Origin: Lysobacter sp. K5869
GTDB taxonomy: Bacteria; Pseudomonadota; Gammaproteobacteria; Xanthomonadales; Xanthomonadaceae
Direction: 5' to 3'
Assembly: GCF_018847975.1 (NCBI RefSeq)
Contig: NZ_CP072597.1
Location: 1,240,001-1,304,000 of the forward strand
DNA length: 64,000 nt
Positions 37,966 through 58,598 of this stretch are shown here, one piece after another (position 1 is the stretch's first letter; the number at the start of each line of letters is the position of its first letter). The position numbers and the translations under genes are program-made. The notes under the pieces are model-generated. The model was not told the DNA's origin. It saw only the letters and a program-made list of their open reading frames with translations, and ran no database searches.

Positions 37966-38673
37966 TCAAAGATCGCGAACCACCCACCCGCTGGGCAACG
38001 GCGCGTCCGCCACATCCAACACCGCTTGCGCCACTTCCTCCGGCGAACGCCCCGCGCGCCACGCATCGGCGAGCGCGCGCAGGCGCTCGCGGGTGGCGCG
38101 GGTGTAAGCGCCTTCCATCTCGTTCTGCGCGTCGGCCGCGAGTTTTTGCGGATACAGCGTGCGCGCGTCCTCGCTGCGGTTGAGCAACGCGATCAGCCGC
38201 GCCAGCGCGGTGCGGAAGGTGTCCGCGCCCAACGCGGTGCGCTGGGTGCGTTGCAGATGCCACACGGTCAGATACTCGACCGGCCCGAGCAAACGCCGCG
38301 GCGTCGCGCCGAAGAAATGCCCGGACAAGGCGCTGACCGCGACCGGCCCGCTCGATTCGGGCAGGCGGGTCGCGCCCCACGAGCTCAGCGCGCCGCCGGG
38401 CAGGTCCATGCGCCGCAGCGCGGTGCCGAAGGTGTCGGCGAGCAGGCGCTGGGCGCGCGCGTCGTCGCTCTCGGCGACCACGCCGAGCAGGCGGATGAAC
38501 AAGGGATAGCGCTCCTCGCCCAGGCGCCGGACCACCCGCTTGAGCACGCTGAGCCGGTACTCCGGATCGCTGTGCGCGGCCAGCGCGGACACCAGCCGGT
38601 CGGCGGCGGCGCGCAGGGCTTCGGGCGAGGGGGCGGGTTCGGTCACGGCGGGCGGGGCGGCGGAAGACGCCAT
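37966..38673 (-). CDS. Conserved-looking cytoplasmic protein of unknown function
   Basis: 235 residues, no signal peptide or membrane segment. Mostly helical, with regular leucine spacing (RLSVLKRVVRRLGEERYPLF, LGPVEYLTVWHLQRTQRTAL, LARLIALLNRSEDARTLYPQ). No motif I recognise. Its codon use and composition match the neighbours. It lies between repeat elements and the start of the type III locus; nothing links it to secretion. Confidence 0.6.
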   Translation of the reverse strand: MASSAAPPAVTEPAPSPEALRAAADRLVSALAAHSDPEYRLSVLKRVVRRLGEERYPLFIRLLGVVAESDDARAQRLLADTFGTALRRMDLPGGALSSWGATRLPESSGPVAVSALSGHFFGATPRRLLGPVEYLTVWHLQRTQRTALGADTFRTALARLIALLNRSEDARTLYPQKLAADAQNEMEGAYTRATRERLRALADAWRAGRSPEEVAQAVLDVADAPLPSGWVVRDL

Positions 38674-39390: not shown

Positions 39391-40500
39391 ATGGCGAAGG
39401 ACCAGGGCGCCGACAAGACCGAGCCGCCGACCCAGAAAAAGATCCGCGACGCGCGCAAGGAAGGCAACGTCGCCAAGAGCAAGGAGCTGACCAGCACCGT
39501 CTTGGTGCTGGGCTGGGTGGTGTGCGGCTGGCTGATGATGGACTTCATGCGGCTCAAGCTGATCCGCCTGTTCGAGACCAGCCTCAAGGCGGTCAACCAG
39601 CCCTTCGGCGACGCCCTGCGCGAGGTCGGCGGTTCGGCCTTCGAGACCTTGCTGTGGCTGACCCTGCCGCTGCTGGCGATGGCGGTGTTCCTCGGCGCGG
39701 TCGTCGAATTCCTCCAGGTCGGCCCGATCCTGGCGCTGGGCAAGCTCAAGCCGGCGATGGACAAGATGAACCCGGCCGAGGGCGTCAAGAAGATGTTCTC
39801 GCTCGACAATCTGGTCGAGCTGCTCAAGTCGGTGATCAAGAGCGCGGCGCTGATCGGCATCGGCGTGTTCGTGATCTACAAGATGCTGGGCCAGCTGATG
39901 TTGCTGCCGTACGCGCCGCCCGAGGCGATGGGCTCGGGCATCTGGTACGGGTTGGTGCGGATCGTGGTGTGGACGATCTTCGTGTTCTTCTTCGTCTCCG
40001 CCATCGACGTGTGGTACCAGAAGTTCTCCTACCTCAAGCAGTTGCGCATGAGCCGGCGCGACATCCAGCAGGAGGTCAAGGAGAACGAAGGCGACCCGCA
40101 TGTGAAGAGCCGGCGCCGGCAGTTGCATCAGGAATGGTCGCAGCAGAACATGCTCAACGCCGTCCGCCAATCCAACGTCGTCGTGACCAATCCCACCCAC
40201 ATCGCCATCGCCCTGCAGTACGAACACGGCGTCACCGACTTGCCGGTGGTGGTGGCCAAGGGCGAGGGCTACCTGGCCGAGGCGATCAAGCGCGCCGCGG
40301 TCGAGGCCGGCGTGCCGATCCTGCAGAACGTGGAACTCGCGCGCGGGCTCAACGAGCGCGCGGAGCTCGACGAATACATCGGCAACGAATTCTTCGAGGC
40401 GGTGGCCGAGGTGCTGCACTGGGCCGAAAGCGTGCGCCGCCTGCGCGACGGCGACGACAGCGCGCCGGAATTGCCGCCGCCGTTGGACGATCAGCGCTGA
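39391..40500 (+). CDS. sctU: Type III secretion export apparatus switch protein SctU
   Basis: 369 residues. The N-terminus EPPTQKKIRDARKEGNVAKS is typical of FlhB/YscU. Four membrane segments follow, then the cytoplasmic domain with the autocleavage motif NPTH at N267 in VVVTNPTHIAIALQY. Self-cleavage between N and P switches export from needle subunits to later substrates. It is the only structural gene of the locus that stands alone on the plus strand before the inverted sctQRST block. Confidence 0.96.
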   Translation: MAKDQGADKTEPPTQKKIRDARKEGNVAKSKELTSTVLVLGWVVCGWLMMDFMRLKLIRLFETSLKAVNQPFGDALREVGGSAFETLLWLTLPLLAMAVFLGAVVEFLQVGPILALGKLKPAMDKMNPAEGVKKMFSLDNLVELLKSVIKSAALIGIGVFVIYKMLGQLMLLPYAPPEAMGSGIWYGLVRIVVWTIFVFFFVSAIDVWYQKFSYLKQLRMSRRDIQQEVKENEGDPHVKSRRRQLHQEWSQQNMLNAVRQSNVVVTNPTHIAIALQYEHGVTDLPVVVAKGEGYLAEAIKRAAVEAGVPILQNVELARGLNERAELDEYIGNEFFEAVAEVLHWAESVRRLRDGDDSAPELPPPLDDQR

Positions 40501-40717: not shown

Positions 40718-41512
40718 TTACGCCCCGCCGAACACCTTGTTCAAGGCCTCGATCAACCCGCGATTGCCGGAGATCCGCTCCAGCACGATCTCCACATACA
40801 CTCCCAGCATCAGCAACACGATCCACGTCGCCAGCCAGGCCTTGATCGGCATGGTGATGGTGAACACGTTGAGCTGCGGGGCGAAGCGGTTGACCAGGCC
40901 GAAGGAGATGTCGATCAGCATCAGCACCACCATCGCCGGCGCGGCCAGCACCAGCAGCGCGGTCATCAGATAGCTGAATTGCCCGACGAACAGCTCCATC
41001 CCGGCCGCGTGCAAGGTCGGGAAGAACGACACCACCGGCCACATCGCGTAGCTGGCCATCAGCAGGTCGAGGAACACCAGGAACGCGCCGCTGGCCATGA
41101 ACAGCCAGGTCGCGAACTGCGAGAGGAAGCTGCCGTGCAGCGAGGCCTGATGGCCCTGGATCGGGTCGAACACCTGCGCGAGCGTCATGCCGACTTGGGT
41201 GTCGATGACGTTGCCGGCGGCGCTGATCGCCCAGAACACCATGCCGAACACGAAGCCGATCGACACGCCGATGAACAGCTCCTTGAGCACGATCGGCGCG
41301 AACTGCAGCGCGTTGAGCTGGCTCAGCGGCACGCCGTTCATCGCCACCGGGATCGCGATCAGCGCCAGCGAGACCATGAAGCTGTTGCGCACCAGCGGCG
41401 GCATGTTCTCGTTCGTAATCAGCGGCAGCATCATGAACGCGCCGAGCACGCGCGGCAGCACCAGCCCCAGCGCGAGCAGCAGGTTGCCGCCGTTTTCGAC
41501 GTCGAGAATCAT
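40718..41512 (-). CDS. sctT: Type III secretion export apparatus protein SctT
   Basis: 264 residues, multi-pass membrane protein of the FliR/YscT family (LALGLVLPRVLGAFMMLPL, GVSIGFVFGMVFWAISAAGN, FVFLDLLMASYAMW-like). It forms part of the export gate with SctR and SctS. The start is 13 bp after the sctS stop. Confidence 0.93.
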   Translation of the reverse strand: MILDVENGGNLLLALGLVLPRVLGAFMMLPLITNENMPPLVRNSFMVSLALIAIPVAMNGVPLSQLNALQFAPIVLKELFIGVSIGFVFGMVFWAISAAGNVIDTQVGMTLAQVFDPIQGHQASLHGSFLSQFATWLFMASGAFLVFLDLLMASYAMWPVVSFFPTLHAAGMELFVGQFSYLMTALLVLAAPAMVVLMLIDISFGLVNRFAPQLNVFTITMPIKAWLATWIVLLMLGVYVEIVLERISGNRGLIEALNKVFGGA

Positions 41513-41525
41513 CGGGCCGCGCGCA

Positions 41526-41792
41526 TCAGTGCCGGATCATGCCGGGGAAGTCGAGGAAGATGCGGTCGGCGAAGGTGTAGAGGGTGCCGCCGATCATCGA
41601 CGCGGTGACGAACAAGGTCACCACGATCACGGTGAACTTGATCGCGTAGGCGAAGGTTTGTTCCTGCAACTGCGTGGCGGCCTGGATGAAGGCCACCACC
41701 AGCCCGACCACGGCCGCGGCCACCACCGGCGGACCCGACAACAGCAGGGTCAGCCACAGGGCCTGTTTGGTCATTTCGAGCATGTCGCCCAT
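41526..41792 (-). CDS. sctS: Type III secretion export apparatus protein SctS
   Basis: 88 residues with two membrane hairpins, the normal FliQ/YscS size. Typical motifs: TKQALWLTLLLSGPPVVAAA and GLVVAFIQAATQLQEQTFAY. Forms the export gate with SctR and SctT. Confidence 0.95.
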   Translation of the reverse strand: MGDMLEMTKQALWLTLLLSGPPVVAAAVVGLVVAFIQAATQLQEQTFAYAIKFTVIVVTLFVTASMIGGTLYTFADRIFLDFPGMIRH

Positions 41793-41936: not shown

Positions 41937-42869
41937 TCACCCGCCATACGTCAACACCAACCCATGCACCAGCTTCGCCCAGCCGCCGATCAGCACGAAC
42001 AGCAGCAGCTTGAACGGCAGCGAGACCGTGGTCGGCGAGAGCATCATCATGCCCAGCGACAACAGGATGTTGGACACCACCAGGTCGATGATCAGGAACG
42101 GCAGGAAGATCAGGAAGCCGATCTGGAACGCGGCGGTGAGTTCGCTGACGGTGAAGGCGGGGATCACCACGATGAAGTCGTTGACGGTGATGTCGCCGCG
42201 CGCGTTCGGCGGCAGCAGGCGCTGGGCGCTGCGCAGGAAGAACGCGCGCTCGGCGTCGCTGGAGTGCTTGATCAGGAACTTGCGCAGCGGCTCCTTGCCG
42301 GCGTCCATCAGCTGCAGCAGGCGCGCGGCGTCCATCTTGCCGCCGAGCACGGCCGAGGGCGTCGGCGTCGGGCGTTTGGCGTTCGCGGCGGCACTGGCGG
42401 TGGGGGCGGCCGCAGCGGCGGTCGCGGTCGCCGGAGCGGCGGCAGCGGCCGGAGCAGCGGCGGCCGCAGCGGCAGCGGCCGGCGCCGCCACGTTCGCCGC
42501 GACCGGCGCAGCGCCCGTCGTGGCGGCCGGCGCGCCCGTCGTCGCGGCGGCCGCAGTCGCCGCGGCCGGACCGGTCCCCGGCGGCTGCCCCTGCGTCGCC
42601 GTCGCCGCGGTGCCGCCGCCGGCGCTGGCGTTGACCGCGTCGTGGGTCTCCAGGATCACCGGATACATCACATAGATCGACAGCACGATCGCCAGACCGT
42701 TGATGACCACGTTCGGCGGCACCTGCTGCAGCCCCAGCGCGTTGCGCAGCAGGCTCAGCACCACGACGATCTTGGTGAAGGAGGTCACCATCACCGCCAC
42801 GAACGGCGCCAGCGCGAGGCTGACCACGGTCAGCAGCACCAGCGCCGGCGAGAACGAACTGAAATCCAT
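41937..42869 (-). CDS. sctR: Type III secretion export apparatus protein SctR with large Ala-rich insertion
   Basis: 310 residues against about 215 for the family. The N-terminal two membrane segments (APFVAVMVTSFTKIVVVLSL, VVINGLAIVLSIYVMYPV) and the C-terminal part (PLRKFLIKHS, FTVSELTAAFQIGFLIFLPF, SILLSLGMMMLSP-like) are normal FliP/YscR. Between them, residues about 81-178 are a low-complexity Ala/Thr/Pro/Gly stretch. Removing it gives the canonical length of about 212. The insertion lies in the loop after the second membrane segment, predicted periplasmic. It starts 3 bp after the sctQ stop. Confidence 0.95.
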   Translation of the reverse strand: MDFSSFSPALVLLTVVSLALAPFVAVMVTSFTKIVVVLSLLRNALGLQQVPPNVVINGLAIVLSIYVMYPVILETHDAVNASAGGGTAATATQGQPPGTGPAAATAAAATTGAPAATTGAAPVAANVAAPAAAAAAAAAPAAAAAPATATAAAAAPTASAAANAKRPTPTPSAVLGGKMDAARLLQLMDAGKEPLRKFLIKHSSDAERAFFLRSAQRLLPPNARGDITVNDFIVVIPAFTVSELTAAFQIGFLIFLPFLIIDLVVSNILLSLGMMMLSPTTVSLPFKLLLFVLIGGWAKLVHGLVLTYGG

Positions 42870-42872
42870 GAC

Positions 42873-43988
42873 TCAGCTCCAGGAGAGCAGGCGCACGCCC
42901 AAGGTGTCGCCGACCGCGACGATCTCGCCGCGGCCCGCATCGCGCCCGTTGGCGCGGATCACCACGTTGGCGCCTTCCAGGCGCGAGGGCAGCGCGAACA
43001 CGTAGCCGGGCTGGAAACCCTTGAGGTCTTCGTAGCGGCATTCCAGCCGGCCCAGGTCGAAGTCCAGGCGGACCGGTACGTCCGGGCCGGTGGCTTCGGG
43101 CGCCTGCGCGTCGGATTCGGGATCGCTCATCGAAGATGTCTCCTGGTGCGTGGAAAGGAATTGGGGCGGGCCGTCGATGCGCCAGCCTTCGGCGCCCGGC
43201 GCCAGCGGCCAGGCGCAGCCCGGCGCGCGCGCGCGCATCTGCGGCAGGCGCTGGAAATTGCCGATCACCAGCACGTCGCCGACGCGCAGCTGGCGCCATT
43301 GCGCGTAGCGCAGGGTCGGGCCGTCCCAGGCCAGCGCCAGCGGCACCGGCAGCTGCGACCAGTCGCGGTACTGCGCGCCGTCCTCGTCGCCGCGCGGCGC
43401 GCGTTCGAACAGTTCCGAACGCTGCAGCAGGCGATCGACCCAGCCCGGCGGAATGCGCAGATGGCCGCGCGCGCGCACTTGCGCGGCGGGGTCGAGAATG
43501 CGGAAGCCCAGCCACAGGCCGTCGTCGTCGCCGTTGCGCGCCTGCAGGCTCTGCAGCGAGGCGGCGCCGTCGTCGACCACCGGGATCAGCGCCACGTCGA
43601 GCGCCTGACTGAGCTTCATCAGCTGCGATTCGTGGGCCAGGCTCCAGGCCAGCACGCGCGAACGGCCGCGGTAGCCGGTCCAGTGCAGGCCGGTGTCGGT
43701 GTCCAGCGCCAAGCCGCTGTCGAGCTGCAGCCGCACCCGCGTGCCGTCGCCTTCCAGCGTCACCGTCTCGCCGTCGACCGGGCCGGCGGCGAAGAACTCC
43801 AGCCAGCCGCCGCCGTCGCGCAGCGGCCAGCGCTGGGCCGCGCCGAAGAAGCCGCACAGCGCCTGCGCCTGCCACAGCGGCACCGACGCCACCCGCCCGC
43901 GCAGCGGGCGCGCGCGCTCGGCGTGGTCTTCGCCGAACGCGTTCGGCGCGGCGTCGGGCGCGGTTTGGATCGCGTCGGCGTCAACCAT
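42873..43988 (-). CDS. sctQ: Type III secretion cytoplasmic ring protein SctQ
   Basis: 371 residues. The C-terminal 70 residues form a SpoA (surface presentation of antigens) domain: VPVRLDFDLGRLECRYEDLK, GANVVIRANGR, EIVAVGDTLGVRLLSW. The N-terminal region is variable as usual. It forms the cytoplasmic sorting platform with SctK, SctL and SctN. Its start overlaps the end of the upstream response regulator gene by 8 bp, so the regulator and structural genes are translationally linked. Confidence 0.92.
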   Translation of the reverse strand: MVDADAIQTAPDAAPNAFGEDHAERARPLRGRVASVPLWQAQALCGFFGAAQRWPLRDGGGWLEFFAAGPVDGETVTLEGDGTRVRLQLDSGLALDTDTGLHWTGYRGRSRVLAWSLAHESQLMKLSQALDVALIPVVDDGAASLQSLQARNGDDDGLWLGFRILDPAAQVRARGHLRIPPGWVDRLLQRSELFERAPRGDEDGAQYRDWSQLPVPLALAWDGPTLRYAQWRQLRVGDVLVIGNFQRLPQMRARAPGCAWPLAPGAEGWRIDGPPQFLSTHQETSSMSDPESDAQAPEATGPDVPVRLDFDLGRLECRYEDLKGFQPGYVFALPSRLEGANVVIRANGRDAGRGEIVAVGDTLGVRLLSWS

Positions 43989-44586
43989 GGCCCAGCGCCA
44001 CCTTCATCAATTCGGGCAGCGAGCGTACCCCGAGTTTGTTCATCATGTTCGATCGATGCAGTTCCACGGTCTTGACGCTGATGCCGAGCACGTCGGCGAT
44101 GATCTTGTTGGGTTTGCTCGCCACCACCAGATCCATGACCTGACGCTCGCGCGGGCTGAGCTTGGCCAGCCGGTCGTCGCCGGCTTCGCCGCCGCCGGCG
44201 TGATTGCGCGCGTTGGCGACGGCGGCGCGGATCGCTTCGATCAGGCCTTCGTCGCTGAACGGTTTTTCCAGGAAGTTGGACGCGCCCTTGCGCATCGCCT
44301 CGACCGCCAGCGGCACGTCGCCGTGCGCGGTGACGAACACCAGCGGCAGGCCGATCCCGCGCCGGCGCAGTTCTTCCTGCAATTGCAGCCCGCTCATCAG
44401 CGGCATGCGGATGTCCGAGACCAGACACTGCGCGCCGCTGCCGTGGCGTTCGCTGCCGTAGGCCTCCAGGAAAGCCGGCCCGCTGGCGTGGGCCTGCACC
44501 TCGAAGCCGGCGGTTTCCAGCAGCCACGCGGTGGATTCGCGGAAACCGTCGTTGTCGTCGACCAGATAGATGCGCGCTTCGCTCAT
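43981..44586 (-). CDS. FixJ/NarL-type response regulator
   Basis: 201 residues. Receiver with DDNDGFR, phospho-acceptor D58 in LVSDIRMPLMSG, FVTAHGD and EKPF; then a LuxR-type helix-turn-helix (LSPRERQVMDLVVASKPNKI, LGISVKTVELHRSNMMNKLG). This is the FixJ/TodT arrangement. It overlaps sctQ by 8 bp and follows a histidine kinase gene in the same direction, making it the likely local regulator of the secretion genes. Confidence 0.93.
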   Translation of the reverse strand: MSEARIYLVDDNDGFRESTAWLLETAGFEVQAHASGPAFLEAYGSERHGSGAQCLVSDIRMPLMSGLQLQEELRRRGIGLPLVFVTAHGDVPLAVEAMRKGASNFLEKPFSDEGLIEAIRAAVANARNHAGGGEAGDDRLAKLSPRERQVMDLVVASKPNKIIADVLGISVKTVELHRSNMMNKLGVRSLPELMKVALGHG

Positions 44587-44749
44587 GCGGGTGTCCTCGG
44601 ACGTGCTTCCCTGGTGCCGGCGTTCGCCCGTTCGAAGCGCGCGCCCGTGGCCGACGGCGCGGCCGAGCCTCGCCCGGCCGCGCGCCAGCGCGACGGTATA
44701 ACCCGAAGCGGCGGGGCGGCGGTGCTGAGGTTTGTCACCTGCGCGCCTT

Positions 44750-45820
44750 TCAAGCGCGCGCCTCGTAACGCGGCAGGGTGAAGCCGAACACGCTGCCGCC
44801 GCCTTCGCGCGGCTCGAAGAACAGCCGGCCCTCGTGGTATTCGATGATCGAGCGGCAGATCGCCAGGCCGATGCCCAGGCCGTCGGTCTTGGTGGTGAAG
44901 AACGGCGAGAACAGTTGGTCCTGCTCGGCCGGACTGAGGCCGGCGCCGCGGTCGGACACGCGCACTTCGACCTGCTCGTCGAGGTTCAGCCGCGCGTCGA
45001 TGCGCAGCTCGCGCCGCTCCGGGGCGATCTCGCGCATGGCTTCGATCGCGTTCTTGACCAGATTCAGCAGCACCTGTTCGACCATCACCCGGTCGGCGAA
45101 CACCGGCGGCAGCGGCTCGGGCAGGCGCAGTTCGATGCGCAGATCGAGCCGCTCGGCCTCCAGCCGCAGCAGCTCCAGCACGGTTTCGGCGATGCGCGAC
45201 AGGGCGTGGGCGTCGCGCCGCGGCTCGCGCGCGCGGACGAACTCGCGCACTCGCGAAATCACCGCGCTGGCGTGCTCGGCCTGGGTGCGCGCGGCTTGCA
45301 GCGCGCGTTCGACCTGGACCGGTCCACCCGCCTGCTCGACCAGACGCAGGCTGCCGTTTACGTAGTTCATGATCGCCGCGAGCGGCTGGTTCAGCTCGTG
45401 CGCGAGGGTCGCGGCCATCTCGCCGACCGACATCATGCGCGAGGTGAACAGCAGTTTTTCCTGGCGGCTCTTGTGCGAGGCCAGGGTTTCGATGCGCTCG
45501 CTGATGTCGACCGCGGTCAGCACGTCGGCCGGCGCGCCGGCGTGCTCGGCGCGGCCCCAGTGCAGCGCGTACCAGCGGCCGCTGTGCGGGGCGCGGACCT
45601 CGCGCGGACGCGCGCCGTCGCCGGCTTGGGCGTGCAGGCGCGCGAGCAGGGCGTCGCGGCGTTCGTGTTCGGGCAGTTCGCCGAAGTCCTCGCGGTAGCG
45701 CGCGTTGGCCGCGCGCAGCGCGCCGTCGGCGGCGAACACCGCGCAGGCGAACGGCACCGCGGCGAGCAGGCCGGCGTCGTCGCCGGCGGCTTCGGTGGCG
45801 GCGGAGCGGGCGCGGGCCAT
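44750..45820 (-). CDS. PAS sensor histidine kinase (FixL-like)
   Basis: 356 residues, no membrane segment, so cytoplasmic. An N-terminal PAS-like region (PFACAVFAADGALRAANARY) is followed by HisKA with the phospho-acceptor His in LAHELNQPLAAIMNYVNGSL, then the ATPase with N box LLNLVKNAIEAM, G1 DRGAGLSPAE and G2 GLGIGLAICRSIIEYHEG. The LNQPLAAI...N pattern is that of FixL-like kinases. It precedes the FixJ-type regulator by 163 bp. Signal unknown; the short PAS shows no obvious haem-ligand evidence. Confidence 0.9.
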   Translation of the reverse strand: MARARSAATEAAGDDAGLLAAVPFACAVFAADGALRAANARYREDFGELPEHERRDALLARLHAQAGDGARPREVRAPHSGRWYALHWGRAEHAGAPADVLTAVDISERIETLASHKSRQEKLLFTSRMMSVGEMAATLAHELNQPLAAIMNYVNGSLRLVEQAGGPVQVERALQAARTQAEHASAVISRVREFVRAREPRRDAHALSRIAETVLELLRLEAERLDLRIELRLPEPLPPVFADRVMVEQVLLNLVKNAIEAMREIAPERRELRIDARLNLDEQVEVRVSDRGAGLSPAEQDQLFSPFFTTKTDGLGIGLAICRSIIEYHEGRLFFEPREGGGSVFGFTLPRYEARA

Positions 45821-45977: not shown

Positions 45978-46505
45978 ATGCCGACACTGCCCTTGCTGCG
46001 TTCCGTCGTCCGTTGCGGCCTCGCCCGCGCCTGCCTCGCCTTCGCGTGCTGCGCGCCGTGGGCCGCGTTCGCCGCGGCGCCGGCGGCGTCCGCCGCCGCC
46101 GTTCCCGCCGCCGAGGCCGCCGCTGCGCAGCCGCCGTCGATCTTGTTCGAGTTCGCCGCGATCCTGCTGCCGGTGGCGGTGGTGCTCGGCGGCCTGGTCG
46201 CGGTGCTCTACGTGCTGCGCAAACGCCACGGCCTGACCGCGCGCGACGCGCCGCTGTCGGTGCTGCAGATCCTGCCGATCGGCCCGCGCGAGCGGATCGT
46301 GGTGCTGCGCACCCGCAGCGGGCGGGCGCTCGCGATCGGCGTGAGCGGGCAATCGCTGAACCTCATCGCCGAACTCGACCCGGCCGACATCGCTCCCGCG
46401 ACGGCCGCATCGGAGGCGACGGTTGCATCGGCAACCGTTTCCGCGAGCGCTGCTCCCACACCGTCCGCAGCGGACCCCAGTGTCTCCGCGGAGCGCGAAT
46501 CGTGA
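45978..46505 (+). CDS. FliO-like membrane protein at the type III locus
   Basis: 175 residues from ATG 45978 (an in-frame ATG at 45924 would add 18 residues). Signal-like N-terminus (LARACLAFACCAPWAAFAAA), an Ala-rich stretch, one membrane segment (FEFAAILLPVAVVLGGLVAVL), then a cytoplasmic domain with the FliO pattern: LSVLQILPIGPRERIVVLRT, SGRALAIGVSGQSLNLI. FliO assists assembly of the FliP ring in flagella and is generally absent from injectisomes. Its position between the regulator pair and sctV suggests a role with SctR here. Assignment rests on motif pattern and context. Confidence 0.72.
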   Translation: MPTLPLLRSVVRCGLARACLAFACCAPWAAFAAAPAASAAAVPAAEAAAAQPPSILFEFAAILLPVAVVLGGLVAVLYVLRKRHGLTARDAPLSVLQILPIGPRERIVVLRTRSGRALAIGVSGQSLNLIAELDPADIAPATAASEATVASATVSASAAPTPSAADPSVSAERES

Positions 46506-46904: not shown

Positions 46905-48968
46905 ATGCGTGGACTGCTGACTTCCTGGATCGCTACCGCGTCCGGCGCGCAGGGGCGTCGCCGCGCGGGCTACAGCGACGTGGTCCTGGCGTTCGCCGCG
47001 GTGACCATCATCGGCGTGATGATCCTGCCGCTGCCGCTGGCGATCATCGACACGCTGGTGGCGGTCAACATCGCGATCGGTTTCGGCCTGCTGCTGATCG
47101 CGCTGTACATCCCCACGCCGGTGGCGTTCTCCAGCTTTCCCAGCGTGCTGCTGCTGACCACGCTGTTCCGCTTGTCGCTGTCGATCGCGATCACCCGCTC
47201 GATCCTGCTCGAAGCCAACGGCGGTCATATCGTTGAAACATTCGGCAGCCTCGTCGCCGGCGGCAACCTCGTGGTCGGCTTCGTGGTGTTCCTGATCATC
47301 ACCGTGGTCCAGTTCATCGTCATCGCCAAGGGCGCCGAGCGCGTGGCCGAAGTCGCCGCGCGCTTCACCCTGGACGCGATGCCCGGCAAGCAGCTGTCGA
47401 TCGACTCGGACCTGCGCGCCGGCCTGATCGACAAGGACGAAGCCAAGCGCAAGCGCCGCCTGCTGGAAGTGGAAAGCCAGCTGCACGGCAGCCTCGACGG
47501 CGCGATGAAGTTCGTGAAGGGCGACGCCATCGCCGGCATCGTCATCATCATCATCAACCTGCTCGGCGGCTTGGCCATCGGCGTGCTGCAGAAGGGCATG
47601 CCGCTCACCGACGCGACCCACACTTATTCGATCCTGACCATCGGCGACGGGCTGGTCTCGCAGATTCCGGCCATCCTGGCGACCATCGCCGCCGGCCTGG
47701 TGGTGACCCGCACCGCCGGCGACGAAGACGACCGCCATCTGGGCGAGTCGATCACCCGCCAGGTCTCCGGCCAGCCGCGCGTGCTGCTGATCACCGGCTG
47801 CCTCGCGTTCCTGATGATCTTCGTGCCGGGCTTCCCCAAGCCGGTATTCCTGATGCTGTCGCTGGTGCTGCTCGGCTTCGCCGGCTGGCGCTACCGCCAT
47901 CACCACCCGCTGCTGCGCCGCGTCTTCAGCGTGCCCGAGGGCGAGCGCGCGGACGAGGACAAGCCGGCCAACGAGGACGAAGTGGCGCCGCCCGCGCCGC
48001 TGCAGCTGGAGATTTCGCCGTCGCTGGCGGCCGCGTTCGGCGAGTACGCCGCGCGCGAGCGCATGGTCGAAGTCGCGCGCCGCCTGCGCGACGAATACGG
48101 CGTGCCGCTGCCGGTGCCGGTGGTGAAGATCGCCGCCGACCTCGACGGCGGCGACGGCCTCGGCGGTTACCGTTTGACCGCGTTCGGCGCGCGCATCGCC
48201 TTCGGCCGCTTGTCGCCGAACGCGCAGTTCCGCGCCGCGCGCGCCGGCGACGCCAACGCGCCCAAGCTGCCGGGCTTCTTCCCGCCGCTGTCGGGCGAAT
48301 GGACCGGACAGGCCGGCGCCGGCATTCGCGACGCGCTGAGCACGGTGATGGAGCATTGCCGGCATGCGCTGGAACGGCGCCTGGGCAGCTTCATCGGCAT
48401 CCAGGAGGCCTCCAACCTGTTCGGGCGCATGCAGCGCGATTACCCGGATCTGGTCAAGGAAATGCTGCGCGTGGTCGCGCCGCAGCGCGTCGCCGACGTG
48501 TTGCGCCGCTTGGTTGAAGAGGGCGTGCCGATCCGCAATCTGCGCGACGCGTTCGAGGCCATCACCGACGTCGGCGGCCGCGAGAAGGACGTGGTGCTGC
48601 TGACCGAGTACGTGCGCGTCGCGCTCAAGCGCGAAATCGCCGATCGTTACGCCGACGGCGAACGCACCATGCAAGTGCTGCTGATCCATCCGGAACTGGA
48701 AGACCGCCTGCGCCAATCGGTGCGCGTGGCGGGCGGCGCGACCCAATTGGCGATCTCGCCGGAACTGGCCGGCCGCCTCGGCGCGGAGGTGCGTTCGCAT
48801 CTGTCGCGACAAGGCGAAGGCATAAAGCCGGTGTTGCTGTGTTCACTGGATGTTCGCCGTCACCTGCGCAAGCTGTTGGAGATCGACTTCTTCGAGCTGC
48901 CGGTGTTGTCCTACCAGGAACTCGCGCCCGATCTGCGCATCGTGCAGGCAGGCCAGGTCAACGCCTGA
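46905..48968 (+). CDS. sctV: Type III secretion export apparatus protein SctV
   Basis: 687 residues of the FlhA/YscV family. Eight membrane segments in the first half (ILPLPLAIIDTLVAVNIAIG, SFPSVLLLTTLFRLSLSIA) with the conserved cytoplasmic FHIPEP-region segment FTLDAMPGKQLSIDSDLRAG. The C-terminal half is the nonameric cytoplasmic ring that receives chaperone-substrate complexes. An AAGGA lies 17 bp upstream, so the start could be slightly different. Confidence 0.96.
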   Translation: MRGLLTSWIATASGAQGRRRAGYSDVVLAFAAVTIIGVMILPLPLAIIDTLVAVNIAIGFGLLLIALYIPTPVAFSSFPSVLLLTTLFRLSLSIAITRSILLEANGGHIVETFGSLVAGGNLVVGFVVFLIITVVQFIVIAKGAERVAEVAARFTLDAMPGKQLSIDSDLRAGLIDKDEAKRKRRLLEVESQLHGSLDGAMKFVKGDAIAGIVIIIINLLGGLAIGVLQKGMPLTDATHTYSILTIGDGLVSQIPAILATIAAGLVVTRTAGDEDDRHLGESITRQVSGQPRVLLITGCLAFLMIFVPGFPKPVFLMLSLVLLGFAGWRYRHHHPLLRRVFSVPEGERADEDKPANEDEVAPPAPLQLEISPSLAAAFGEYAARERMVEVARRLRDEYGVPLPVPVVKIAADLDGGDGLGGYRLTAFGARIAFGRLSPNAQFRAARAGDANAPKLPGFFPPLSGEWTGQAGAGIRDALSTVMEHCRHALERRLGSFIGIQEASNLFGRMQRDYPDLVKEMLRVVAPQRVADVLRRLVEEGVPIRNLRDAFEAITDVGGREKDVVLLTEYVRVALKREIADRYADGERTMQVLLIHPELEDRLRQSVRVAGGATQLAISPELAGRLGAEVRSHLSRQGEGIKPVLLCSLDVRRHLRKLLEIDFFELPVLSYQELAPDLRIVQAGQVNA

Positions 48969-49098: not shown

Positions 49099-50580
49099 AT
49101 GATGTCCACCGACCAACATCCCACGCCCGACGACGCGCCCGAGCCGCGCGCCGCCGATGCCGCGATCGAGCCGGCGCCGGCCGCGCCGGCTGAACAGCGC
49201 GCGGAGCCGCGCGCGGCCGAAGCGCGCGCCGAGATCCGCGTCGCCTCGCCGGCGATCGGCGTGCTGCGCATCGTCTCCGGCCTGCACACCGGCGGCAGCC
49301 GGCCGCTGTCGGCGCAGGAAACCGTGCTGATCGGCAGCAGCGGCGATTGCGACATCGTGCTGTCCGATCCCAACGTCGCGCCGCGCCACGCGTTCCTGAC
49401 CCGCATGGGCGGCACGGTCTCGCTGCGCGCGCTCGACGCGCCGCTGTTCGTCGACGGCCAGACCTTGAACCCGGGCGATCCGGCCGAACTCGGCGCGATG
49501 CAGCGCGTCGACATCGGCGGCGCCTCGTTCGCGGTCGGCGCCGCGGAAGATCCGGGTTGGGCGACGATGCTGCCCAACCTCGCCGACGCCGCGCGGCCGG
49601 CCAAGACGCCGATGCGCCATCTGCCGCTGATCGCGGGCCTCGCCGCGCTGTCGCTGGTGTCGGTGGCGATCGCCGCGGCGGTGATGCCGGGCTTCGAGAA
49701 GAAGCCGACGCCGACCGAACTGGTGCAGCCGCTGATCAAGGAATTCTCCATCGCCGGCGGACGCTTGGCCGAGAACGAAGACGGCAGCTTGGTGCTGTCG
49801 GGCACGGTCAAGGACGCGACCACGCGCGAGATGATCCGCAAGCGCCTGATCACCGATGAGGTCGATGCGCGGCTGGAGCTGCGCACCGGCGACGACATCG
49901 CCGCCGACGTGCGCGAAGTGCTGCGCAGCCAGGGCCTGACCACGCAGACGCGCTATCTGGGCAACGGCGACGTCGAAGTCAGCGGCCGCTTCGCCGACGA
50001 AGACCAGTTCAAGCGCGCGGTGGCTTCGCGCGCGATGCAGGACGTCAACGGCGTGCGCCGGGTGATTCCGCGCAACCTCGACGAAACCCACGTCGCCGCC
50101 GGCCCCGCGGTGGCCGCGCCGGAAGCGCCGAAGAAGGCGACGCCGGCCGAACCGACCCGGATCGTCAAGATCGTGCGCGGCGACAGCCCGCACGTGATCG
50201 ACCTCGACGGCGCCGAGTACGCGGTCGGCGACACCTTGCCCGACGGCCGCGATCTGATCGCCATCGGCGACAAGGCCTGGGCGCTGAACAAGCTGACCGG
50301 GGTGACCGAGCAGATCAAGGCGCAGCCGCTGACCGCGCAGGAACTGGCCATCGCCAACGGCACCGCGCCGGCCGCCGATGCCGCCACCGCCGCGACGCCG
50401 GCGGCCGCGGCCAGCGCGACGCCCGCGCCGAACGCCGCGACGCCGGCCGCGCCCGCCGCCAATGCCGCACCGACGGCCGCCAGCGGCGCCAAGGCGCCCG
50501 CCGCTGCGCCCGCGAGCAGCGGCGCGCCCGCGCGCCCGGCCGTGGCCGAGGCGCCCGCGCGGCCGGGAAACCGACAATGA
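49099..50580 (+). CDS. sctD: Type III secretion inner-membrane ring protein SctD
   Basis: 493 residues (MM start; either Met possible; GGAG 12 bp upstream). An acidic Ala/Pro-rich leader, an FHA domain at about 55-150 (ETVLIGSSGDCDIVLSDPNV, APRHAFLTRMGG), one membrane segment (LPLIAGLAALSLVSVAIAAA), and periplasmic ring-building repeats (SLVLSGTVKDATTREMIRKR, GDVEVSGRFADEDQFKRAV). After about residue 410 the tail is Ala/Pro low complexity, longer than usual. With SctJ it builds the inner ring; the FHA domain contacts SctK. Confidence 0.9.
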   Translation: MMSTDQHPTPDDAPEPRAADAAIEPAPAAPAEQRAEPRAAEARAEIRVASPAIGVLRIVSGLHTGGSRPLSAQETVLIGSSGDCDIVLSDPNVAPRHAFLTRMGGTVSLRALDAPLFVDGQTLNPGDPAELGAMQRVDIGGASFAVGAAEDPGWATMLPNLADAARPAKTPMRHLPLIAGLAALSLVSVAIAAAVMPGFEKKPTPTELVQPLIKEFSIAGGRLAENEDGSLVLSGTVKDATTREMIRKRLITDEVDARLELRTGDDIAADVREVLRSQGLTTQTRYLGNGDVEVSGRFADEDQFKRAVASRAMQDVNGVRRVIPRNLDETHVAAGPAVAAPEAPKKATPAEPTRIVKIVRGDSPHVIDLDGAEYAVGDTLPDGRDLIAIGDKAWALNKLTGVTEQIKAQPLTAQELAIANGTAPAADAATAATPAAAASATPAPNAATPAAPAANAAPTAASGAKAPAAAPASSGAPARPAVAEAPARPGNRQ

Positions 50581-50764: not shown

Positions 50765-51163
50765 ATGAGCAACAACGCAGTCAACGGCGCCGGCGGCAAT
50801 GCCGGCCTGGTCACCAGCTTCATCGCCGACGTCAACAAGAACGACGCCATCGGCAACGGTAAGAGTTCGCGCGGCGCCGGCAGCAGCAGCGGCGCGGGCG
50901 GCGGCGTGTCGGCCGGCGGTGGCGGCGGCGGCGGTCAGGCGAGCTGGTACGAGTCGATGGCCCGCGCCTGGGGCCAGACCATGGACGCGCAGGCCTCGCG
51001 CATCACCGAGCTCTCCGGCTCGATCGGCGGCGGCAACGACCAGCCCTCGTCGATGATCGCGCTGACCTCGCAGAGCCTGCGCATGCAGTTCATCTCCAAC
51101 AGCGCTTCGACCTCGATCAACTCGGTCGCCCAGGGCATCGAGAAGCTCGCTTCGAAGAACTGA
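50765..51163 (+). CDS. Candidate needle subunit (SctF-like) with Gly/Ser-rich N-terminal extension
   Basis: 132 residues from ATG 50765. Residues 1-60 are Gly/Ser/Asn-rich (seven Gly in a row at about 51-57). From W61 the remaining 72 residues look like a needle protomer: a helix with WYESMARAWGQTMDAQASRI, a P-S turn (NDQPSSM), and a second helix LRMQFISNSASTSINSVAQG. It occupies the position of yscF in the D-F-I-J-K-L order. The second such protein (57451-57762) shares W, A, G, D, A, T in register. Needle proteins are usually about 80-90 residues, so the extension is atypical. Candidate, not proven. Confidence 0.6.
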   Translation: MSNNAVNGAGGNAGLVTSFIADVNKNDAIGNGKSSRGAGSSSGAGGGVSAGGGGGGGQASWYESMARAWGQTMDAQASRITELSGSIGGGNDQPSSMIALTSQSLRMQFISNSASTSINSVAQGIEKLASKN

Positions 51164-51777: not shown

Positions 51778-52578
51778 ATGGGTAGGGCGTCGGGCTTCAA
51801 AGCGGTAAGGATTCTGGCGGCCCTGCTGGCCTGCCTGCTGATCGTGGGATGTACGCGCACGCCGCTGTACAGCCAACTCGACGAGCAGCAGGCCAACGAA
51901 CTGATGGCGGCGCTGCTCGACGCGGGCATCCCCGCCGAGAAAGACCCCTCGCCGAGCAAGACCGGCTGGGAAGTCATGGTCAATCGCGGCGACATCCCCT
52001 ATGCGATGCAGGTGCTCAACTCGCGCGGCCTGCCGCGCGCGCAGTACCGCTCGCTGGGCGACGTGTTCAAGAAGGAAGGCTTCGCGTCCTCGGCGCTGGA
52101 AGAGAAGGCGCGCTACCTCTACGGCCTGTCGCAGGAACTCTCGCGCACGCTGACCCGCATCGACGGCGTGGTCGAGGCGCGCGTGCACATCGCGCTGCCC
52201 GACCGCGATCCGCTCGGCGGCAACGTCCAGGACTCCTCGGCCTCGGTGCTGATCTTCGAGCGCCCGGGCCAGAGCCTGCGCGACCGCGAGACCGACATCA
52301 AAGTGTTCGTGAAGGACAGCGTCGAAGGCCTGGACGACGTTAACAAGGTCACGGTCAAGTTCTTCACCGTGCAATCGCCGCCGAAGGTCAGTCAGGCCGG
52401 CGGCCCGCTCAATGCGGTGCTCGGCTCGATCGACCTGAGCGCGGTCATCATCGGCGCCGGCGTGTTGGTGCTGCTGGCGATCGTCGCGTTCTTCTTCGGC
52501 CGCATGCGTTCGCGCCTGTTCCCGGCCGCGCCGCAACCGCCGCCGAGCAACGCCCGCGGCGGAGTGTGGAACGGATGA
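51778..52578 (+). CDS. sctJ: Type III secretion inner-membrane ring lipoprotein SctJ
   Basis: 266 residues. Lipoprotein signal ending LLIVGCTRTPLYSQL, ring-building motifs EQQANELMAALLDAGIPAEK and VNRGDIPYAMQVLNSRGLPR, then EEKARYLYGLSQELSRTLTR, DGVVEARVHIALPDRDP and a C-terminal membrane segment (IIGAGVLVLLAIVAFFFG). Canonical YscJ/PrgK family. Its stop overlaps the ATG of sctK (ATGA). Confidence 0.97.
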   Translation: MGRASGFKAVRILAALLACLLIVGCTRTPLYSQLDEQQANELMAALLDAGIPAEKDPSPSKTGWEVMVNRGDIPYAMQVLNSRGLPRAQYRSLGDVFKKEGFASSALEEKARYLYGLSQELSRTLTRIDGVVEARVHIALPDRDPLGGNVQDSSASVLIFERPGQSLRDRETDIKVFVKDSVEGLDDVNKVTVKFFTVQSPPKVSQAGGPLNAVLGSIDLSAVIIGAGVLVLLAIVAFFFGRMRSRLFPAAPQPPPSNARGGVWNG

Positions 52579-54028: not shown

Positions 54029-55381
54029 ATGAGCAGCCTGCCGCGCACGGTATTGCAGCCGGCGCCCGCGCCGGTGCAGATCGACCCGCTGATCGCCGCG
54101 CTCGCGCGCGTGCCCAGCGTGGTGCGCGTGGGCAAGGTCGCCGAGGCCTACGGCACCATGATCCGCGCCACCGGACTGAAGGCGATGATCGGCGAGCTGT
54201 GCGAACTGCGCAGCCCGCGCGACCGCAATTTCCGCCTTACCGCCGAAGTGGTCGGCGTCTCGCGCCAATACACCTTGCTGACGCCGCTGGGGCCGCTCGA
54301 CGGCGTCGCCCACGACACCGAGGTCGTCGCCACCGGGCGGCAAGCGTCGGTGCGCTGCGGCGAAGGTTTGCTCGGTCGCATCCTCGACGCCAACGGCGAC
54401 GCCATCGACGGCCGCGGCAGTTTCGGCCCGACCGTGCAGATGCCGATCTACGCCGCCTCGCCCAATCCGTTGGCGCGGCAGTTGATCGAAGAACCCTTCG
54501 CCACCGGCGTGCGCGCGATCGACACGGTGATCACCGCCGGCGTCGGCCAGCGCCTGGGCATCTTCGCCGTCGCCGGCGGCGGCAAGAGCACCTTGCTCGG
54601 CATGCTCGCGCGCGGCGGCGACGCCGACGTCAACGTGATCGCCCTGGTCGGCGAGCGCGGCCGCGAGGTCAACGAATTCATCCACGACAACCTCGGCGAA
54701 GCCGGGCTCAAGAAGTCGATCATCGTGGTCGCCACCTCCGACCGCCCGGCGCTGGAACGCAGCCGCGCGGCCTGGGTCGCCACCGCCATCGCCGAATACT
54801 TCCGCGACCGCGGCCAGCGGGTGATGCTGCTGGTGGACTCGGTGACGCGCTTCGCCCGCGCGCTGCGCGACGTCGGCCTCGCCATCGGCGAGCCGCCGGC
54901 GCGGCGCGGTTTCCCGCCGTCGGTGTTCAGCCAGATGCCGCGCTTGTTCGAGCGCGCCGGCAACAACGACAAGGGCTCGATCACCGCGTTCTACACCGTG
55001 CTGATGGAAGGCGAGGACGGCGACGACCCGGTCGCCGAGGAAGTGCGCTCGATCCTCGACGGCCACATCGTGCTCTCGCGCAAACTCGCCGCCGCGTACC
55101 ACTATCCGGCCATCGACGTGCTGGTGAGCCTGAGCCGGACCATGCCGCGCGTGGCCGACGACGCGCACCAGCGCGCCGCCGGGCAGTTGCGCAAGTATCT
55201 GGCCAAGCACCAGGACATCGAACTGCTGCTGCAGCTGGGCGAGTACAAGCGCGGCAGCGACGCCGACGCCGACATCGCGATCGAGAAGATCGAACCGATC
55301 CGCAAGCTGCTCAAGCAATCGGCCGCCGATCTGGCCGACTACAAGCAATCCGTCGACGCGCTGCGCAGGTTGTTCGGATGA
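54029..55381 (+). CDS. sctN: Type III secretion ATPase SctN
   Basis: 450 residues of the FliI/YscN family. Walker A reads AVAGGGKSTLLG with K186; Walker B LLVDSVTRFARALRDVG; ERGREVNEFI and GRRGFPPSVFSQMPRLFERA-type sequence follow. Hexameric ATPase that detaches chaperones and unfolds substrates at the gate. Its TGA overlaps the ATG of sctO. Confidence 0.98.
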   Translation: MSSLPRTVLQPAPAPVQIDPLIAALARVPSVVRVGKVAEAYGTMIRATGLKAMIGELCELRSPRDRNFRLTAEVVGVSRQYTLLTPLGPLDGVAHDTEVVATGRQASVRCGEGLLGRILDANGDAIDGRGSFGPTVQMPIYAASPNPLARQLIEEPFATGVRAIDTVITAGVGQRLGIFAVAGGGKSTLLGMLARGGDADVNVIALVGERGREVNEFIHDNLGEAGLKKSIIVVATSDRPALERSRAAWVATAIAEYFRDRGQRVMLLVDSVTRFARALRDVGLAIGEPPARRGFPPSVFSQMPRLFERAGNNDKGSITAFYTVLMEGEDGDDPVAEEVRSILDGHIVLSRKLAAAYHYPAIDVLVSLSRTMPRVADDAHQRAAGQLRKYLAKHQDIELLLQLGEYKRGSDADADIAIEKIEPIRKLLKQSAADLADYKQSVDALRRLFG

Positions 55382-57304: not shown

Positions 57305-57450
57305 GAGTTCCTGGCCCCGCCCCCTAGGGTACGCCATAGCTTGTTGCCCCCCGGGCCCGCGCGGAAGATGGCATCAACCAACCAGGGGCGGGTCTCGACG
57401 ACCAGGCTGAACCGCTCTGTCTCGCACAACGCATCGCATTGGAGAAGATC

Positions 57451-57762
57451 ATGAGCAACGACGTGAATGCCCTGTTCGCCAATTCCCTGGCCAATCAGGA
57501 AGTGCAGAACAAGACCAACGAAGCCAAGAGCGGCGGCAAGGACGGCTGGCTGATGGCGCTGGCGACCATGGCCGGCAAGCTGGCCGACAAGAAGGCCGAC
57601 CAGATGACCAAGGCGATCGAAGGCCTGCCGGCCGACGCCAAGCCGAGCGACATGCTCAAGACCCAGGCTCTGGTCTCGGAATTCCAGCTGATGATGAACA
57701 CCTTCACCAACGTGGTGAAGACCATCGGCGACACCAACGCCAACACCGCCCGCAAGGGTTGA
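57451..57762 (+). CDS. Second needle-like small protein
   Basis: 103 residues from ATG 57451 with GGAGAAGATC upstream. After a polar N-terminus (MSNDVNALFANSLANQE) the last 71 residues from W33 have the needle-like pattern (GWLMALATMAGKLADKKADQ, a PADAKPSDM turn, VSEFQLMMNTFTNVVKTIGD). It shares the MSN start and the in-register W, A, G, D, A, T and P-S-x-M positions with the 50765-51163 protein. It is a separate transcription unit with a strong terminator, as expected for a highly expressed filament subunit. Could be the true needle, a filament, or a translocon-associated protein. Confidence 0.6.
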   Translation: MSNDVNALFANSLANQEVQNKTNEAKSGGKDGWLMALATMAGKLADKKADQMTKAIEGLPADAKPSDMLKTQALVSEFQLMMNTFTNVVKTIGDTNANTARKG

Positions 57763-57832: not shown

Positions 57833-57848
57833 GCGGCAGGGATTTTTC

Positions 57849-58598
57849 ATGGCGACGACGAAGACTCTCGCGGCGGCGATCGCGCTGCTCGGCGCGTGCG
57901 CGCCGGCCGGGGCGCAGGACTATCAGCCGTACATGGACTCGTTCAATTCGACCATGACCTCGATGCAGAACACCGCCGGCACCGCCGCGGTCAACGCGGC
58001 GATCAACCGCTCGTTGAGCCAGCGCGGCAAGAGTGCCGCGCCCGCGGCCAAGCCGGCGGCGAAAGCGGCGGCGACGGCGGATCTGTCGTTCCGCCGCGAT
58101 CCGGCCACCACCGAACGCGTGCGCGCGGCGCTGATCGCGGCGATGGGCAAGCAAAGCCGCGGCGTCGCCGACGACTTCGCGCGCCGCTCCGGCGGCGCCG
58201 ATTACCGCCGCCGTTTCGCCGCCACGCTGCCGGCGCGCGGCCTGTCCAACGACAACCTCGCCGATGTCGCCGCGTATCACGTCGCGGTCAATTGGGCGCT
58301 GGTGCATCAGGCGGCGTTGCCGTCGGCGGCGTCGCTGCGCGCGTTGCGCGAGCAGATGCGCGGCTCGTTCGCCGACAACGGCGTGCTGGCGCAGCTCGCG
58401 CCGGCGCAGCGGCAGTGGGTCGCGGACGATTTCCTGTTCCGCTCGTTGAACCTGGACGAGAAGGTCGAGCAGTTCGCGCGCGCGCCGGATCCGCAGACCC
58501 AGGCCGCGTTCGCGCGCGCGGCGCGCGAGGACATCCGCCGGACCTTGGGGCTGGACTTGCAGGACTATCGATTCACGGCGGCCGGCTTGGTGCGCTGA
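57849..58598 (+). CDS. Secreted protein of unknown function (DUF6683-like)
   Basis: 249 residues from ATG 57849; the frame is open upstream through the terminator but the signal peptide (TLAAAIALLGACAPAGAQ) sets the start. The mature protein begins DYQPYMDSFNSTMTSMQ, followed by a basic Ala linker and a helical domain (LSNDNLADVAAYHVAVNWAL, ALREQMRGSFADNGVLAQL), which resembles DUF6683-type proteins. Sec export implies a periplasmic role, not a type III effector. It closes the plus-strand part of the locus and ends before a 20-bp-stem terminator. Confidence 0.65.
   Translation: MATTKTLAAAIALLGACAPAGAQDYQPYMDSFNSTMTSMQNTAGTAAVNAAINRSLSQRGKSAAPAAKPAAKAAATADLSFRRDPATTERVRAALIAAMGKQSRGVADDFARRSGGADYRRRFAATLPARGLSNDNLADVAAYHVAVNWALVHQAALPSAASLRALREQMRGSFADNGVLAQLAPAQRQWVADDFLFRSLNLDEKVEQFARAPDPQTQAAFARAAREDIRRTLGLDLQDYRFTAAGLVR

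Follow-up and report, generated by a model that had tools for sequence, protein, structure and literature searches.

Does the FliO-family gene found in the genome of Lysobacter sp. K5869 belong to the non-flagellar type III secretion system (T3SS) that surrounds it, and what might its product do there? The gene lies within a 64,000-nt stretch of contig NZ_CP072597.1 (positions 1,240,001 to 1,304,000), which was analysed as a whole and is referred to here as the window. Our preferred answer, to which we assign a probability of about 0.7, is that FliO is part of this T3SS and, like its flagellar counterpart, works while the inner-membrane export gate is being assembled. The open reading frame (45978–46505, + strand) begins with an ATG at 45978, encodes 175 aa and runs through its stop codon at 46505. 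MPTLPLLRS or a similar sequence is the start common to its close relatives; the database version of the protein (P0001) has 193 aa and a start further upstream. The protein matched the Pfam FliO family (PF04347) at 38.3 bits (cut-off 22, E = 1.4e-9), and no competing Pfam family was found at E ≤ 0.01. Both motifs from which the initial annotation had recognized a FliO pattern, one of them ALAIGVSG, are present. Against the NCBIfam equivalog for flagellar FliO, TIGR03500, the score was 38.6 bits, below the cut-off of 55.25, so the protein is described here as FliO-family and not as a certified flagellar FliO. All 54 aligned FliO sequences (from the window, relatives, T3SS loci and flagellar clusters) match Pfam FliO and no second family, an agreement that indicates consistency only, because most were chosen as FliO hits. 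A sequence search with the window FliO returned a single irrelevant match (E = 0.86), and an Rfam scan of the window gave no matches.

The genes around fliO were assigned with family profiles. About 400 bp downstream, on the same strand, lies sctV (46905–48968, +; TIGR01399, 717.9 bits, cut-off 692.25), followed by sctD (49099–50580, +; TIGR02500, 90.5 bits, cut-off 86) and sctJ (51778–52578, +; TIGR02544, 182.3 bits, cut-off 161.95). On the other side lie sctU (39391–40500, +; TIGR01404, 381.3 bits, cut-off 358), sctT (40718–41512, −; TIGR01401, 216.5 bits, cut-off 163.05), sctS (41526–41792, −; TIGR01403, 93.7 bits, cut-off 76.5), sctR (41937–42869, −; TIGR01102, 246.4 bits, cut-off 208.6) and sctQ (42873–43988, −; TIGR02551, 111.4 bits, cut-off 100.8). 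SctR, S, T, U, V, J, D and Q thus all pass their NCBIfam equivalog cut-offs, which identifies a non-flagellar T3SS, and FliO is encoded within this locus, as had been claimed. The ATPase gene sctN (54029–55381, +) passes the subfamily cut-off (TIGR01026, 553.5 bits, cut-off 379.5) and falls slightly short of its own equivalog (595.2 bits, cut-off 604.75). A needle subunit-like sctF (57451–57762, +; scanned as 57439–57762) is recognized by Pfam PF09392 (30.5 bits, cut-off 29.4), its score against NCBIfam TIGR02105 being 24.4 (cut-off 41.7); SctL scored below the NCBIfam cut-offs and just above that of Pfam FliH. Between sctQ and fliO, on the − strand (43981–45820), translations indicate a response regulator (43981–44586) and a histidine kinase (44750–45820), a pair also present in an L. 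enzymogenes-type locus (L130). The fliO gene points away from this pair, and sctQRST lies beyond it on the opposite strand.

Three further proteins of the locus were noted. A small protein encoded at 50765–51163, between sctD and sctI, has no Pfam or NCBIfam match; relatives occupy the same place in most loci of the SctV clade described below, and its C-terminal end looks needle-like by eye. A DUF6683 protein with a signal-like start (57846–58598) adjoins the needle gene and has relatives in T3SS loci L027, L029 and L035 and in sphingomonads (L050 and L104). Near sctU, a protein without a family match (37966–38673, −) has a similar-looking ORF, by eye, near sctU of Hahella (L042, 3480–4172).

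Flagellar markers were sought across the 5.97-Mb single-contig genome. At E ≤ 0.001 the window FliO is the only PF04347 match. PF00813 (FliP/SctR) finds only the window SctR, as two pieces divided by an insert, and TIGR01399 finds only the window SctV, with no second FlhA or SctV. Neither flagellin (PF00669) nor the rod protein (PF00460) was matched anywhere in the genome; in each marker search 4 of 14 control genomes gave a match, those for TIGR01399 lying below the cut-off. The genome therefore has no FliP besides SctR with which FliO could form a flagellar cluster, and a full flagellar cluster using this gene, the finding named beforehand as fatal to the annotation, did not appear. In this genome, the context of FliO is exclusively the T3SS, and these results support its identification as a FliO-family protein dedicated to that system. 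An equation of the L. enzymogenes OH11 ‘FT3SS’ genes, as presented in PMC7277350, with the window-type injectisome was considered and found unsupported: an L. enzymogenes-type genome (G009) has the T3SS locus L130 plus a separate flagellum-like cluster, L127. This cluster contains FlhA-, FlhB-, FliR-, FliQ-, FliI- and FliF-like genes and, by eye, rod-like ORFs, and the 19 kb taken from it gave no FliO match.

An AlphaFold2 (AF2) model predicts the FliO-family fold, in which a small β-sheet domain comes after a single transmembrane helix. The model comprises a leading helix (residues 4–24), a long helix predicted to span the membrane (residues 55–84; 46140–46229, +; ten-residue block pLDDT 85, 93 and 91, end block 71) and four strands forming a predicted β domain (residues 94–133; 46257–46376, +; block pLDDT 81–95). 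Across residues 51–140, ten-residue blocks score 81–95 except for the linker block at 71; overall, the mean pLDDT is 72.8 and the pTM 0.41, with low-confidence Ala-rich flanks. The β domain carries a G-x-R-E-R and G-V motif whose G, R, E, R, G and V columns are 97–100% conserved in 29 T3SS FliO sequences, and this motif is common to the window FliO and many of the aligned flagellar FliO. A core of transmembrane helix plus β-sheet is what PMC12403147 describes for FliO, and Salmonella FliO likewise has a FliO domain with a helix and a small cytoplasmic β domain (PMC5542435). By contrast with flagellar FliO, the window protein falls below the TIGR03500 cut-off, its gene adjoins sctV instead of fliP, and it has a long Ala-rich N-terminal segment. 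A Foldseek search of the model against the PDB gave no matches at E ≤ 0.001. Selection was estimated with results from 17 of 19 relatives, among which L027 and L028 duplicate L007 and L005. For the transmembrane helix plus cytoplasmic part, dN/dS is 0.23–0.44 in 14 same-genus comparisons and 0.61 against Luteimonas aquatica, and this region is under sequence constraint; the N-terminal segment is less constrained (0.29–2.49 in the same 14 comparisons, with few sites).

Among relatives, 14 of the 19 same-genus genomes contain FliO, and the five that lack it also lack an SctV match; two other family members (G022 and G031) have strong FliO matches and six more relatives have weak ones (21–29 bits). 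SctV passes its cut-off in 17 of 59 relatives. In 16 of them, the 14 same-genus genomes together with G022 and G031, the strong FliO match lies at most 0.5 kb from SctV. The remaining one, G035, encodes a different SctV that has no neighbouring FliO, and its weak FliO match is on another contig, 12.6 kb from an FlhA-like gene. A broader sample comprised the best 80 SctV loci by similarity to the window, a selection that contains hardly any systems of the Hrc, SPI-1, Chlamydia or Myxococcus types; the PF04347 search covered 79 of the 80 genomes. FliO lies in 28 of these 80 loci, and a profile built from T3SS FliO recovered the same 28 and nothing further below E = 0.1. In a quick SctV tree of these loci, rooted with eight FlhA and with long branches flagged, a single clade of 32 rows (SH-aLRT 99) contains the window together with all 28 FliO loci, and a within-locus check found FliO in none of the 49 loci outside it, where FliO on another contig is possible; several of the loci sampled, clade members and others alike, are on short contigs. 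Three clade loci lack FliO. In two of these genomes (L052 and L085) an SctU–FliO pair lies on another contig, and the third, Hahella (L042), has a related system and a sole genomic FliO match, which sits in its flagellar cluster, so FliO was dispensable at least once or the flagellar FliO serves. Counting the L052 and L085 pairs, T3SS FliO is present in 30 of the 31 clade genomes among the best 80 loci; with all three loci scored as absent, parsimony gives 4 changes. T3SS-locus FliO was seen in Xanthomonadales, sphingomonads, Burkholderiales and one Granulosicoccaceae genome. The Granulosicoccaceae genome (G103) also has a second T3SS-like locus (L119) with its own sctU–fliO pair and a secretin match nearby (C80:45521). 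A search in the phylum of G127 gave a FliO match in 65 of 118 genomes, a count from which no conclusion is drawn here.

FliO is inherited in parallel with SctV: their distances are correlated across 29 taxa (Mantel r = 0.90, permutation p = 0.0001), with r = 0.86 in 15 Lysobacteraceae and 0.75 in 14 others. It is unlikely that the T3SS locus recently captured a xanthomonad flagellar fliO. Both a T3SS and a flagellar fliO do occur in certain members of the family, Luteimonas huabeiensis being one, and the FliO tree (49 rows, 103 columns) is weak because FliO is short; in that tree T3SS FliO splits into two groups, whereas 36% of bootstrap trees recover it as one. A single T3SS FliO clade is nevertheless not rejected (AU p = 0.52), Lysobacteraceae T3SS FliO stand apart from the flagellar FliO of the same family, and forcing these two into one clade lowers the log-likelihood by 16.3 units, with a borderline AU p of 0.049. 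The groups compared were picked after the tree was seen, and the T3SS group includes L119. These results make recent capture from the family’s own flagella improbable. That FliO is a chance vestige of flagellar loss is hardly credible. A non-functional leftover would be a simple explanation for a genome without a match to the flagellar markers tested, but the FliO core is constrained, FliO and SctV are jointly absent in same-genus genomes, and fliO recurs within T3SS loci across the groups listed above.

The position of fliO bears on its possible client. Of the 28 FliO loci among the best 80, 16 (Lysobacteraceae and Dyella) have fliO upstream of sctV, at 166–401 bp from its aligned part, and 12 have it beside sctU (gap to the aligned part ≤ 504 bp); wherever sctR was found, it is at least 0.9 kb from fliO. 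Together with the restriction to one clade and the parallel distances, this placement suggests that FliO is a factor in gate assembly, passed down along with the secretion system, and it adds SctU or SctV to SctR as possible clients. FliO may even mainly stabilize SctU and/or SctV without being a scaffold for SctR, a reading that we consider plausible, if short of probable. In addition to the gene order, FlhB levels are supported by FliO in C. jejuni and FlhA levels by FliO in H. pylori, as summarized in PMC12403147. However, gene position is weak evidence of partnership, and the target of Salmonella FliO is FliP, which it stabilizes while promoting the FliP–FliR complex (PMC5542435). Moreover, the sphingomonad order is sctU-fliO-(sctQ)-sctR-sctS-sctT (sctQ recognized in 2 of 4 loci), so that fliO still heads a run resembling the flagellar fliN-O-P-Q-R block, a block seen in L123. 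The initial annotation had instead proposed an assembly factor adapted to an enlarged SctR next door, which now appears very unlikely. SctR is indeed enlarged, having 310 aa with a long Ala/Pro-rich insert, but its gene is about 3.1 kb from fliO and on the opposite strand. Its residues 75–184 (42318–42647, −) are unaligned to FliP, the alignment to 6f2d FliP spanning residues 11–74 and 185–305. The loop, defined in our alignment as window residues 65–187, is 103–167 residues long in the window and in the 12 further Lysobacteraceae loci whose SctR is complete, all of which have FliO. It measures 30–46 residues in 9 other clade rows; a further 15 T3SS rows have 31–33 residues, and 19 flagellar rows have 29. 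The lengths within the clade come from the 22 of 31 clade loci that yielded SctR (nine yielded none), with the truncated L027 excluded from the range. Of the 9 clade rows with a short loop (30–46 residues), 8 carry FliO, as in Dyella, sphingomonads and Ottowia, and the ninth, Hahella, has neither a long loop nor FliO. FliO and SctR enlargement are thus not tied, and FliO, being the more widespread, is probably the older trait.

The long Ala/Pro-rich loop (103–167 residues; window 42318–42647, L028–L035 and L037–L040) was seen in Lysobacteraceae only, and the same loci lack a secretin. Within 10 kb on each side of sctV, none of 14 Lysobacteraceae loci has a secretin match; 15 of 17 other clade loci have one, the remaining two being short contigs, and in Dyella, Hahella, sphingomonad, Burkholderiales and Granulosicoccaceae relatives the secretin lies between sctV and sctD. 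Elsewhere in the 14 Lysobacteraceae genomes there are only two secretins (8 genomes) or three to five (6 genomes). The window genome has two, identified by NCBIfam as PilQ and GspD and both outside the window, and hence no dedicated SctC. Five Lysobacter strains have been published as lacking a T3SS secretin (PMC4657364), and Myxococcales systems are likewise described without a dedicated SctC (PMC3459982). The Lysobacter T3SS cluster reported by de Bruijn in 2015 (PMC4657364) and for Hz25 in 2026 (PMC13163355) is of the same locus type, described with no secretin gene; FliO is unmentioned in the Hz25 main text. Because the long loop and the secretin absence both map to one branch, they amount to a single coincidence and not to a statistical link. 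No description of the SctR insert was found in the literature searched, most subscription papers aside.

The occurrence of FliO outside flagella has precedent. A 2025 PNAS paper (PMC12403147) reports FliO from non-flagellar T3SS operons, both in Myxococcota and in several orders of Pseudomonadota; Xanthomonadales are among these, with two Luteimonas named. The earlier statement that reports generally find no FliO in injectisomes is thus no longer current, and the injectisome FliO is itself not novel. The T3SS FliO of Luteimonas huabeiensis, L. arsenica and Myxococcus xanthus given there resemble ours in having a FliO domain within a non-flagellar operon, and an L. huabeiensis locus (HB2, our L029) shares the SctV clade and gene order of the window. 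The word Lysobacter does not occur in the text of that paper, its Dataset S2 aside. In a 2022 L. enzymogenes paper (PMC9410377), the fliO of L. antibioticus 76 is counted among flagellar genes. What the present analysis adds is that FliO loci are confined to one SctV clade among the best 80 loci, where FliO looks like a steady part of that machine family; a search that mostly left aside subscription papers found no paper placing FliO-bearing systems in one SctV clade.

We return to the preferred reading, that FliO acts in gate assembly of the window T3SS. In the scheme that we infer for its membrane topology, binding, timing, release and client, the FliO helix and small cytoplasmic β domain would hold young gate subunits, SctR–SctT and then SctU and SctV. 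The subunits could thereby fold and assemble ahead of ring closure around the gate, and FliO would depart afterwards. Several observations speak against such a role: Hahella L042 and G035 have no adjacent FliO, the TIGR03500 cut-off is missed, and the Foldseek search was null. Injectisomes such as that of Salmonella also function without FliO, according to PMC5542435. The literature searched yielded no experimental study of a T3SS FliO.

A wider scenario, possible but doubtful in its entirety, is that one injectisome family (Lysobacteraceae, Dyella, sphingomonads, several Burkholderiales and Granulosicoccaceae) has retained FliO in the role of a functional gate chaperone. FliO would have been inherited since before the systems of these lineages split, perhaps since the flagellar origin, with its client shifted towards SctU or SctV. 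Within this family, the Lysobacteraceae branch would have lost the secretin and gained the SctR insert of roughly 70–135 Ala/Pro-rich residues, giving a rebuilt export machine that is secretin-less or borrows a secretin. Since the K5869 genome lacks the flagellar markers tested, a fliO deletion in it should be free of flagellar confounding. In an injectisome family that keeps FliO, removal of the gene could show why some export gates need FliO and others do not, and such systems allow one to ask whether the client of FliO is SctR, SctU or SctV.
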